NCBI GenBank assembly: GCA_020721345.1
Contig: DYMX01000012.1
Coordinates: 1-39,247 of the forward strand
Reading direction: 5' to 3'
Length of the DNA: 39,247 nucleotides
From: Sulfurovum sp.
GTDB taxonomy: Bacteria > Campylobacterota > Campylobacteria > Campylobacterales > Sulfurovaceae
Shown here: positions 1-5,321 of the stretch, in pieces
How positions within the stretch are numbered: the first letter of the stretch is position 1
How the letters are laid out: each line of letters starts with the position of its first letter
Notes under the pieces: model-generated
Told to the model about the DNA's origin: nothing
Databases searched by the model: none
The model's input: the letters and a program-made list of their open reading frames with translations, nothing else
Program-made: the position numbers and the translations under genes

Positions 1-33
1 TAAAAAGGCAATCTGATGAAGTTGGGATTTATA

Positions 34-79
34 CCTCATAAGCCGGAGGTCGGGGATTCGAGTTCCCCTCTTGCTACCA
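34..79 (+). pseudogene. 3' half of a tRNA-Met (CAU anticodon), probable attachment-site remnant
   Basis: The anticodon loop CTCATAA (35-41, anticodon CAT at 37-39), the 3' anticodon strand GCCGG (42-46), a 5-base variable loop, a T arm with stem GGGGA/TCCCC and loop TTCGAGT (52-68), the 3' acceptor strand TCTTGCT, discriminator A and encoded CCA (77-79) are all present and in register. The 5' half is missing: bases 1-33 hold no AGCAAGA acceptor strand and no D arm, and the bases before the loop (TATAC) cannot pair with GCCGG except for the C next to the loop. The homology therefore starts at the anticodon loop. Integrases of islands and prophages often recombine at this place and leave a 3' tRNA copy at the far end. 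The intact tRNA would lie left of this window. Confidence 0.7.
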
Positions 80-159
80 CTTCAAACAATCATTTAAAAA
101 TCAAATATTAAGTTAATATTGTAAAACATTCGCTAAAGCCCATATATATAAAATACGGC

Positions 160-236: not shown

Positions 237-1508
237 ATGTTATTTTCAGAGCTAAATCTCTCAACACCTATACTAAAAGCTATCGCCGAAGAAGGCTACA
301 CTACGCCTACGCCTGTTCAAGCGCAGGCAATACCATATATACTTGCAGGACGTGATATGCTCGCAGGTGCTCAAACAGGTACAGGGAAAACAGCTGGGTT
401 TACGCTTCCCATGCTAGAGCTTTTATCTCGTGAACAAACTCCTCAATCAAAAAGACACCATATCAAAACTTTGATATTGACGCCAACCAGGGAACTTGCT
501 GCCCAAGTAGGGATGAGCGTACAAACATACGGCAAGTATCTGCCTTTTAAAAGCACTATTATCTTTGGTGGTGTCGGCGCAAATCCACAAATAAATGCCA
601 TAAACAACGGTGTTGATATACTTATAGCAACCCCAGGAAGACTTCTGGATCTTATAAACCAAAAAGTTATCAACTTAAGTAAAGTGGAAATGTTTGTGCT
701 AGACGAAGCGGACAGGATGCTTGATATGGGTTTTATCCGTGATATCAAAAAGATCATAGCCCTGCTTCCTGCAAAAAGACAAAATCTTCTATTTTCTGCT
801 ACATATTCTGATGAGATAAAAAAACTATGTGAAAGCATACTAAAAAATCCTGCGGTTGTCGAAGTAGCCAGACGAAATACATCAAGCGAACTAGTTAAAC
901 AGAGTGTTATACTAGTTGATTGTAAAAGAAAAAGTGCTTTGCTTGGGCATTTGATAGAAAAAAACAGATGGGAGCAGGTGCTTGTATTTACTCGTACAAA
1001 ACATGGAGCAAATAAACTATCTGAATACCTGCAAAAACTCGGCATCACATCTGCGGCAATTCACGGAAATAAAAGCCAAGGGGCCAGAACAAAAGCTCTT
1101 AGTGACTTTAAAGCAAACAAAGTAAGAGTTCTAGTGGCTACGGATATTGCGGCAAGGGGCATCGATATAGACTCTCTTCCGCATGTGGTCAACCTTGAGC
1201 TTCCAAATATAGCGGAGGATTATGTGCATAGAATAGGTAGAACAGGAAGAGCCGGCAATGGCGGGGAAGCGATATCCCTTGTATGTGTTGATGAGTTTGA
1301 TTATCTTCGCGGCATAGAAAAACTTATCAAGAAAACTTTGGATAAAAGCACTATAGATGGCTACGAGCCTGATCCATCCATAAAAGCTGAACCAATACAG
1401 CAAGGCAGAGGCGGTGGTCGCAATAACAATCATCGTTCCAAATCAAACACTCAGACGCCAAAAAAACGAGACGCTAGCACTCACAATAGAGATAAAAACA
1501 GAAGATAG
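237..1508 (+). CDS. rhlE: DEAD-box ATP-dependent RNA helicase, RhlE-like
   Basis: This is an ATP-dependent RNA helicase of the DEAD-box superfamily, probably acting in ribosome assembly or RNA turnover in the cytoplasm. Visible motifs are the Q motif ([10 protein letters not shown], residues 24-33), Walker A AQTGTGKT (45-52), [12 protein letters not shown] (156-159), SAT (187-189), [13 protein letters not shown] and HRIGRTGR (331-338). The C-terminus is a short basic Gly/Asn/Arg-rich tail that would bind RNA. I chose the ATG at 237 (423 aa) because AAAGGA lies just upstream; an in-frame TTG at 174 would add 21 residues before the conserved domain and has no ribosome binding site. The assignment to RhlE rather than another DEAD-box subgroup rests on overall character and is less certain than the family. 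Confidence 0.9.
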
Positions 1509-1510
1509 TC

Positions 1511-1966
1511 ATGAAGATATTAGTTGATGCCGATGCTTTTCCAAATGCACTCAAAGAGATATTGCTTCGAGCGGTACTAAAAAGATCTGTCACTACCATA
1601 TTTATTGCAAATAAAAAAATAGGCATTCCTGATATTGAACATATATCTATGGAGGTCGTCTCACTGGGAGTAGATGTTGCGGATAATCGTATAACTGAAC
1701 TTGTAGAAGCGGAGGATCTAGTCATCACGGCAGATATCCCACTGGCAGACAGGGTAGTTACCAAAGGTGCCTTGGCCTTAGATCCTAGAGGAACCATATA
1801 TGACGAAGAAAACATAAAATATCTTCTTGCAATGCGAAATTTAATGGATGAACTCCGCAGTAGTGGAGAGATCACCGGCGGTCCTAGCGCCATAGATGCA
1901 AAAACCGTCAGGGCATTTGCAGACGGACTCAATAAATTTCTATCAAACCTTAATACAAACAAATAA
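1511..1966 (+). CDS. YaiI/YqxD family protein (UPF0178, DUF188)
   Basis: The 151-residue protein opens with MKILVDADAFP, the signature of the YaiI/YqxD (DUF188) family, followed by a second acidic cluster (ITADIPLADRV) and a C-terminal segment ending in a conserved FADGLNKFL-like helix. The family has a PIN/NYN-like nuclease fold by prediction, but its substrate is not established. Length matches the family (about 150 aa). It begins two bases after the helicase stop codon, so the two genes are almost certainly co-transcribed, which is compatible with a role in RNA metabolism but does not prove it. Confidence 0.85.
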   Translation: MKILVDADAFPNALKEILLRAVLKRSVTTIFIANKKIGIPDIEHISMEVVSLGVDVADNRITELVEAEDLVITADIPLADRVVTKGALALDPRGTIYDEENIKYLLAMRNLMDELRSSGEITGGPSAIDAKTVRAFADGLNKFLSNLNTNK

Positions 1967-2820: not shown

Positions 2821-4065
2821 ATGATTGATTTGAAATATCTCCAAAATAACTTTGATGAGGCGAGCGCAAGACTTTCAAAGAAAGGAGTCGCCCCTGAGAT
2901 ACTAGGCAACTTAAAAGAACTTTTTGCTTCTTTAAAAGATGCCAACTCTACATTTGAAACAAAAAGAGCCGAGCAAAATAGACTCTCGAAACTTTTTGGT
3001 GAATATAAACAAAAAGGGCTTGATACAAATGAGATAAAAGCAGAACTTGACAGCCTTAAAGCAGAGCTTTCAAAACTTCAAGATGATGCGAGGATAGCAA
3101 ATGAAGACCTTGAGTCATTAAGCCTTGTTATCCCAAACTTTCCTGACGAGAATGTTCCGGATGGAGCGGACGAAGACGACAATATAGAACTAAAAAAAGT
3201 TTTGAGACCAAAAGAGTTTGGATTTGAGCCAAAAGAGCATTGGGATCTTGGTGTTGCAAACGAATGGATAGATTTTGAAAGAGGCGTAAAACTCGCTAAA
3301 AGCCGTTTTTCAGTACTAAAAGGTCAAGGTGCTAGGTTAGAACGGGCTTTGATCAATTTCTTTTTAGATACCAATGCAAAAGCAGGCTTTGAAGAGTTTA
3401 ACTTGCCGCTCATGAACAACTCAAATATGCTTTTAGGTACGGGGCAGCTGCCAAAATTTGAAGAAGACCTTTTTAAGATAGATAATGAAGATTTGTATCT
3501 CATTCCAACAGCCGAAGTACCTTTGACAAACTTGTATAATGATGAGATAATCGATAGCAGTTCACTGCCCATTTTAATGACAGCTTATACTCCATGCTTC
3601 AGAAAAGAGGCGGGGAGCGCAGGAAGAGATACTAGAGGAATGATAAGACAACATCAATTTGACAAAGTTGAAATGGTTGCTATCGCCCACCCAGAGAGTA
3701 GTGATGAGATATTTGACATGATGGTAGAAAATGCTTCAAATTTACTTACACAGCTTGGTCTTCCTCATAGACTTGTGTTGCTTTGCGGAGGGGATCTTGG
3801 TTTTGGCGCAAGCAAAACCGTCGATATAGAAGTATGGCTTCCGGGACAAAATAAATATCGAGAGATAAGCTCTATATCAAACACTAGGGATTTCCAAGCA
3901 AGACGCGCAAAAATCAGATACAAAGAAGACGGTAAAAACAGTTTTGTGCACACACTAAACGGCTCCGCACTTGCTGCTGGAAGAACCCTGATAGCTATAA
4001 TGGAAAATTATCAACAAGAAGATGGGACCATCGCAATACCTGAGGCTTTAAAGAGTTATCTTTAA
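2821..4065 (+). CDS. serS: Serine--tRNA ligase
   Basis: SerS charges tRNA-Ser with serine (and tRNA-Sec where present). The first 110 residues form the two-helix antiparallel coiled coil that grips the long variable arm (Lys/Glu/Leu-rich, '[20 protein letters not shown]'). The class II core follows, with motif 2 '[16 protein letters not shown]' and motif 3 '[19 protein letters not shown]' near the end. Length (414 aa) is normal. I use ATGATTGATTTG at 2821 because bacterial SerS starts MIDLKYL-like; the longer frame from 2770 adds 17 hydrophobic residues and overlaps the promoter. Its stop codon overlaps the xseA stop on the other strand by three bases, leaving no room for a terminator between them. 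Confidence 0.97.
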
Positions 4066-5321
4066 ATCTTAGACTTCTCTTCACATACGGCAATTAATTT
4101 TGTGGTTTTATCTTGAAGTACAAACTTTTGCCCGATACTAATATTCTCCAACTTGATCAATCTATCATCCACCAAGACTTGCGCCCATCCATCAACTACT
4201 CTTTTTCTAGGATCAAGAGATAAAAGCTGATTGCGAGTGTCATTTAAAATCTGCTCTTTTTGAACTAATCTATGAGTTGTAAAATTTTTTAAAGAATTAG
4301 TTATATCAATTGGTAGATTTTGAATAGATGATAGTTTAAAATCAATAATATTTTTTAGATCAATAATAACTTGTTCATATTTTGCGCTTATTGTTTTCAT
4401 TTTATTTGTCGGTGAATTTAATATAAGATTTTGATATATCTCACTTAAAATTTTTGTTTTTAAAGCACTTTGATGTTCAAAAAATCTTTTTATATCATCG
4501 AGATAGTTTGCTAAAATTTGTAATATTTCAAATTTATCAGGCAGGATCATCTCCATAGCAGCACTTGGAGTGGGCGCCCTTAGGTCGGCAACAAAATCAC
4601 TTATCATAACATCAATCTCATGTCCGATAGCGCTTACCGTTGGAGTTGCGGCAAAATGCAAGGCATCGGCTACTATTTCACTATTGTATGCCCAAAGATC
4701 TTCTTTGCTTCCTCCGCCTCTAGCAACTACAATCACATCTATATTTTGCTTATCTGCGTATCTGATTGCTTTTGCTATTTGCTCCGGAGCATTGTCGCCT
4801 TGAACCAAAGTATCAACGATAGTAATATCTAAAAGCGGCCATCTTTTCTCTATGATTTTTAGCATATCATGTAAAGCTGCGCTATCTTTTGCCGTAACAA
4901 GCGCTAATGAATTAATTATTTTAGGAATAGGTTTTTTTGTAGTGGGATCAAAATATCCTTTTTCTTGAAGCTTGGCTTTGAGTTGCTCATAAGCAAGAGC
5001 TAGAGCGCCTTGTCCAAAGGGTTCAATATCAAGTGCATAGAGTTGATATTCACCTTTTGGGGTATAAACGCTAATTGATCCGTTTACAACTATATGCTGT
5101 CCAGCTTCAACTCTAAATTTTAACTTTGATACGCTTGACTTGAACATCACGCATTTAAGTGAACTTTCTTTGTCTTTGATAGAAAAATATAGATGTCCGC
5201 TTGTGTGATATGTAGCAGATGAGACTTCACCCTCTACTAAAATATGCATAAATGTTGATTCGAGCAATGATTTGATCTTGGTATTGAGCGACGATACACT
5301 CATCATTGCCGAATTTGACAA
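4062..5321 (-). CDS. xseA: Exodeoxyribonuclease VII large subunit
   Basis: XseA is the catalytic subunit of exonuclease VII, which degrades single-stranded DNA with the small subunit XseB (not in this window). An N-terminal OB fold ([25 protein letters not shown], about residues 25-100) is followed by the catalytic core with '[15 protein letters not shown]', '[16 protein letters not shown]' and '[27 protein letters not shown]', then a helical coiled coil. At 419 aa it is slightly shorter than E. coli XseA. The start is a TTG at 5321: AAAGGA sits 5 bases ahead of it, whereas the ATGs at 5306 and 5303 are about 20 bases from that site. It follows ubiE by two bases and ends the minus-strand block. 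Confidence 0.95.

Follow-up and report, generated by a model that had tools for sequence, protein, structure and literature searches.

The first 82 bp of the window (the term used here for the whole stretch of DNA that was analysed, which is 39,247 bp in length and makes up the entire contig C34, positions 1-39247, of assembly G000) are very probably the attR end of a mobile element that has integrated in a tRNA-Met(CAU) gene located between groES and rhlE/serS. The start of the window represents an ordinary anticodon-loop tRNA attachment site, a well-known mode of insertion for islands and prophages, and no general idea is changed by it. What the fragment provides is a marker for the limit between foreign DNA and core genome, together with the name of a partner contig (C51), which aids the finishing of this genome (51 contigs, 1.24 Mb); it also adds one more tRNA gene as an insertion slot, and guides the search for prophages and defence genes in the family.

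As described for the Islander collection, a tDNA island interrupts a tRNA gene but brings along, in its attP, a copy of the gene end that makes the gene complete again, and the restored gene and the displaced fragment form the endpoints of the island (PMC4383910; Hudson, Lau and Williams 2014). An anticodon-centred site is used in 2083 of the 3919 islands, and a 3' fragment is present in 3760 (PMC4383910). The arrangement in G000 is like that of Islander class A (anticodon-centred), in which an intact tRNA gene on one side is matched by a 3' fragment, starting in the anticodon loop and lying in the same orientation, on the other; it differs in that its two ends lie on different contigs and no element integrase was found, and as assembled it fails the filters for a common replicon and for an integrase. 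Literature searches brought up nothing on the tRNA-Met site for either Campylobacter or Sulfurimonas.

The tRNA fragment and its boundary

The repeat near the start of the window (Table 1) is 100% identical over 48 bp to C51:2624-2671 (search within G000, E = 1.4e-18), and this second copy belongs to a complete tRNA-Met with the anticodon CAT at C51:2592-2668; the possibility, raised in the preliminary description, that the genome holds no second copy of the fragment is thereby excluded. The tRNA part of the repeat runs from the first base of the anticodon loop (CTCATAA, 7 bases) to the encoded CCA, and is followed by three extra shared bases (80-82). ARAGORN calls no tRNA in the window, and the 5' half is therefore truly missing; the 34 bases in front of the repeat bear no relation to that half, and bases 1-35 have no further copy in G000 when up to 3 mismatches are allowed. 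A search of window bases 1-400 against Rfam returned a sub-threshold match only.

The preliminary description had recognized a tRNA-Met 3' half lacking its 5' half, as is confirmed by these results, and had placed it at bases 34-79. The tRNA does end at base 79, but it starts at base 35 (base 34 is C, where the tRNA has T), and the repeat extends to base 82. The same description had the window begin exactly at the boundary between island and core genome: that boundary is indeed near the start, but its exact position is between bases 34 and 35, base 1 being the end of the contig.

Table 1. Features at the start of the window, with the evidence for each
Feature	Position	Strand	Evidence
Probable last 34 bp of the integrated element, on the rhlE/serS side; contig end at base 1	1..34	+	Unlike the tRNA 5' half; no other genomic copy
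tRNA-Met(CAU) 3' fragment, probably the displaced attB end and now attR	35..79	+	100% identity to bases 33-77 of the intact tRNA-Met, G000:C51:2592-2668
Probable attR direct repeat, 48 bp, common to attL at C51:2624-2671	35..82	+	Sequence identity
Junction, core-genome side	80..135	+	80-103 align to the flank of the intact tRNA-Met in G002; 80-99 match that of G010
DEAD-box RNA helicase (rhlE type), first core gene	237..1505	+	Orthologue downstream of the intact tRNA-Met in G002 and G003
Core gene, product presumably a YaiI/DUF188-type protein	1511..1963	+	Orthologue adjoins rhlE in G002 and G003
serS, which we take to encode seryl-tRNA synthetase	2821..4062	+	Orthologue 75-77 bp past the intact tRNA-Met in G004 and G005

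The restored gene and the interrupted locus

The genes of C51 (5,226 bp) are arranged in the order groEL, groES and intact tRNA-Met, followed by a 285-aa replication-initiation O-like protein (phrog_9773, E 3.4e-22), a 181-aa protein with no matches, and a 156-aa NikA-like mobilization protein (PF21983, E 1.9e-6, scoring 28.3 bits with a cut-off of 27 bits). Genes of mobile or foreign type, coding for the O-like and NikA-like proteins, thus adjoin the restored tRNA, and the element genes are open. The O-like protein found no relatives by tblastn against the viral and genome collections, and among plasmids it has distant relatives only (<30% identity among the matches listed); the NikA-like protein has none in plasmids or in the ten further genomes of the genus. 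An integrative mobilizable element would combine such an accessory mobilization protein with a relaxase; for relaxases the search covered PF03432, of which the G000 assembly holds no member. The 45-bp 3' part of the tRNA gave no match in an exact search of viral_contigs. Beside the O-like gene, the motif TGWCACAA occurs four times within about 125 bp past the attL repeat (C51:2743-2794), the whole 39-kb window containing three copies; those on C51 could be arm-type integrase sites or sites for the replication protein.

Past the fragment, the window continues with rhlE, yaiI, a lipoprotein-like gene and serS. In relatives the order groES-tRNA-Met-serS is uninterrupted, with distances from tRNA to serS of 75 bp (G004), 77 bp (G005), 199 bp (G006), 80 bp (G022) and 158 bp (G031); in G003 the tRNA-Met that follows groES is succeeded by a small gene, rhlE and yaiI, with serS farther along, and in G002 a 4.4-kb insert separates groES and tRNA-Met from rhlE, yaiI and serS. 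The comparison with element-free genomes that the preliminary description had called for is thus provided by G003, G004, G005, G006, G022 and G031, and its placement of core genome to the right of the fragment agrees with the genes found after tRNA-Met in these relatives. When C51 up to the repeat is joined to the window after the repeat, the resulting reconstructed empty site aligns to G002 unbroken through the junction (query 1-392, junction at 371, 87.9%). Because of this alignment and of the core order in relatives, C51 and the window are taken to be the two sides of a single interrupted locus, attL and attR, presumably bounding one element; the tRNA and the fragment, found on two contigs in G000, would also share an orientation, as judged from synteny. 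The reading of the fragment as the far attachment site of an integrated element is upheld by the same pair of contigs, with the intact tRNA leading into mobile genes on one and the fragment leading into core genes on the other.

The likely course of events is as follows. A putative tyrosine recombinase of the element would have recombined its attP with the part of the tRNA gene that extends from the anticodon loop to the 3' end, with a crossover that may have fallen within the 7-base loop (as suggested by the base at which identity starts in G000, G010 and G106). The attP would have brought an identical tRNA 3' part, by which the gene on C51 (the groES side, attL) was made whole again; the original 3' part would thereby have been displaced to the far end of the same element (window, attR).

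Integrases and elements at the same tRNA gene

The preliminary description had sought an intact tRNA-Met(CAU) with a tyrosine recombinase gene next to it, of which the tRNA was located and the recombinase was not: the G000 assembly contains three PF00589 proteins, none of them linked to the element of the window and C51. Two of them, the Xer-like recombinases of C1 and C12, are surrounded by housekeeping genes, and for this reason neither was accepted as the element integrase; the integrase on C40 was rejected because it adjoins the tmRNA gene. On that contig (C40:259-2773) the tmRNA gene is directly followed by a 422-aa integrase with an Arm-DNA-bind_3 domain, the contig ending about 0.9 kb farther on; this is a probable second island, and the tmRNA 3' end has no second copy in the G000 assembly.

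Two related genomes harbour prophages at the same tRNA-Met. In G106, a single 912-kb contig carries the intact tRNA-Met and a primase, and then, about 40 kb on, a portal protein, a tyrosine recombinase, a 45-bp tRNA fragment that starts at the same base as that of the window (CTCATAAGCC), and serS. In G010 the tRNA-Met runs into a phage-type primase on one contig (C3), and another (C15) carries a tRNA fragment with the same first base as the window's, a 362-aa tyrosine recombinase and a portal protein. Both integrases sit between the body of the element and the fragment and are directed towards the fragment; by analogy, the equivalent position in G000 would be immediately to the left of window base 1, off the contig. 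The likeness to G000 extends to the tRNA gene, the first base of the fragment and the core neighbours (groES, and serS in G106). The prophages carry a phage primase and a portal protein, whereas the C51 element begins with the O-like and NikA-like proteins, and the similarity between window bases 1-34 (the right end) and the ends of the G106 and G010 elements is limited to a few bases. The pair ACTGCCGAGTTACTGCCGAGT, located inside both ends of the 40-kb G106 prophage, would fit arm-type integrase sites.

A stretch of 21 bases identical to this G106 repeat is found about 140 bp past the tRNA of G002, and next to it, within the tRNA-Met-rhlE interval (G002:C44:9342-13727), comes an OloA/OloB pair that PADLOC assigns to Olokun defence (E 1.7e-50 and 3.2e-136); neither an integrase match nor a copy of attR was found on that contig. 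Because of the repeat and the pair of genes that follow its tRNA, the G002 insert looks like a decayed phage end that has lost its integrase and attR. A similar fate may be considered for G000, where the fragment could mark the attR of an element that later decayed or underwent partial deletion and can no longer move. The lack of a cognate integrase in the assembly and the seemingly decayed state of the same site in G002 (an attL-like end and a phage-type paired repeat, with neither integrase nor attR) speak for such a history, but it is judged unlikely, as the C51 element genes are open and the fragment matches the intact gene at 48 of 48 positions, an identity from which it follows that integration was probably recent.

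In a genome from another family of the same taxonomic order (G051:C66), an integrase about 37% identical to that of C40 starts 193 bp past the same tRNA-Met (193-1461), and at least one other integrase type therefore uses the gene. A broader proposal, held tentatively and at a little short of an even chance, is that, throughout the family, the tRNA-Met flanked by groES and serS serves as a slot for unrelated elements that enter through the same attachment segment (the O-like/NikA-like element, two distinct prophages, the phage-end relic with the Olokun pair, and, in a different family, the element with another type of integrase), and that this bacterial family harbours, in the element of the window, one that has not been described before and that may be mobilizable. 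The repeated use of the site by different elements across the family also lends something to the idea that elements stand in tandem at the tRNA in G000, with C51 holding the left end of one and the window the right end of another, as does the lack of a physical join between the two contigs. No third 3' fragment of the tRNA-Met gene is found in G000, however, although the internal att copy that a tandem would require could sit in unassembled DNA, and a tandem arrangement is considered improbable.

Contig ends

No overlap links C51 to the window, and the single element that we favour is cut off at the insertion-sequence-like end of C51 on one side and at base 1 of the window on the other. The latter end lies just 34 bp from the junction, which might suggest that 34 unrelated bp have been falsely joined to a core contig truly preceded by the tRNA 5' half. 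This is very improbable: the same tRNA leads into foreign genes on C51, not into rhlE, and the break would have to coincide by chance with the exact first base of the G010 and G106 fragments. That the fragment is a chance tRNA-like repeat, or some other tRNA gene decayed on its 5' side, draws on the missing 5' half and nothing more, and can be dismissed as scarcely credible given the exact 48-bp identity (E = 1.4e-18) and the synteny on both sides.

The 3' end of C51 consists of a repeat that is also found on five other contigs (C50 and C31 begin with it, and C38, C13 and C20 carry it internally), and the assembly breaks there because of this recurrence. The start of C51 is a different repeat end, with which C35 and C1 likewise begin; the contigs that have C51-end repeats at their starts open with core-looking genes. 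These two C51 ends, at 1-60 and 5140-5226 (GAGTGTAAAATAAACTGTGTAAATCC... and TTACACAGTTAGATTTACGCTCC, both on several other contigs), are probably those of an insertion sequence and a short derivative. Both are contained within about 110 bp at C20:48352-48461, in an arrangement that resembles a miniature inverted-repeat element.
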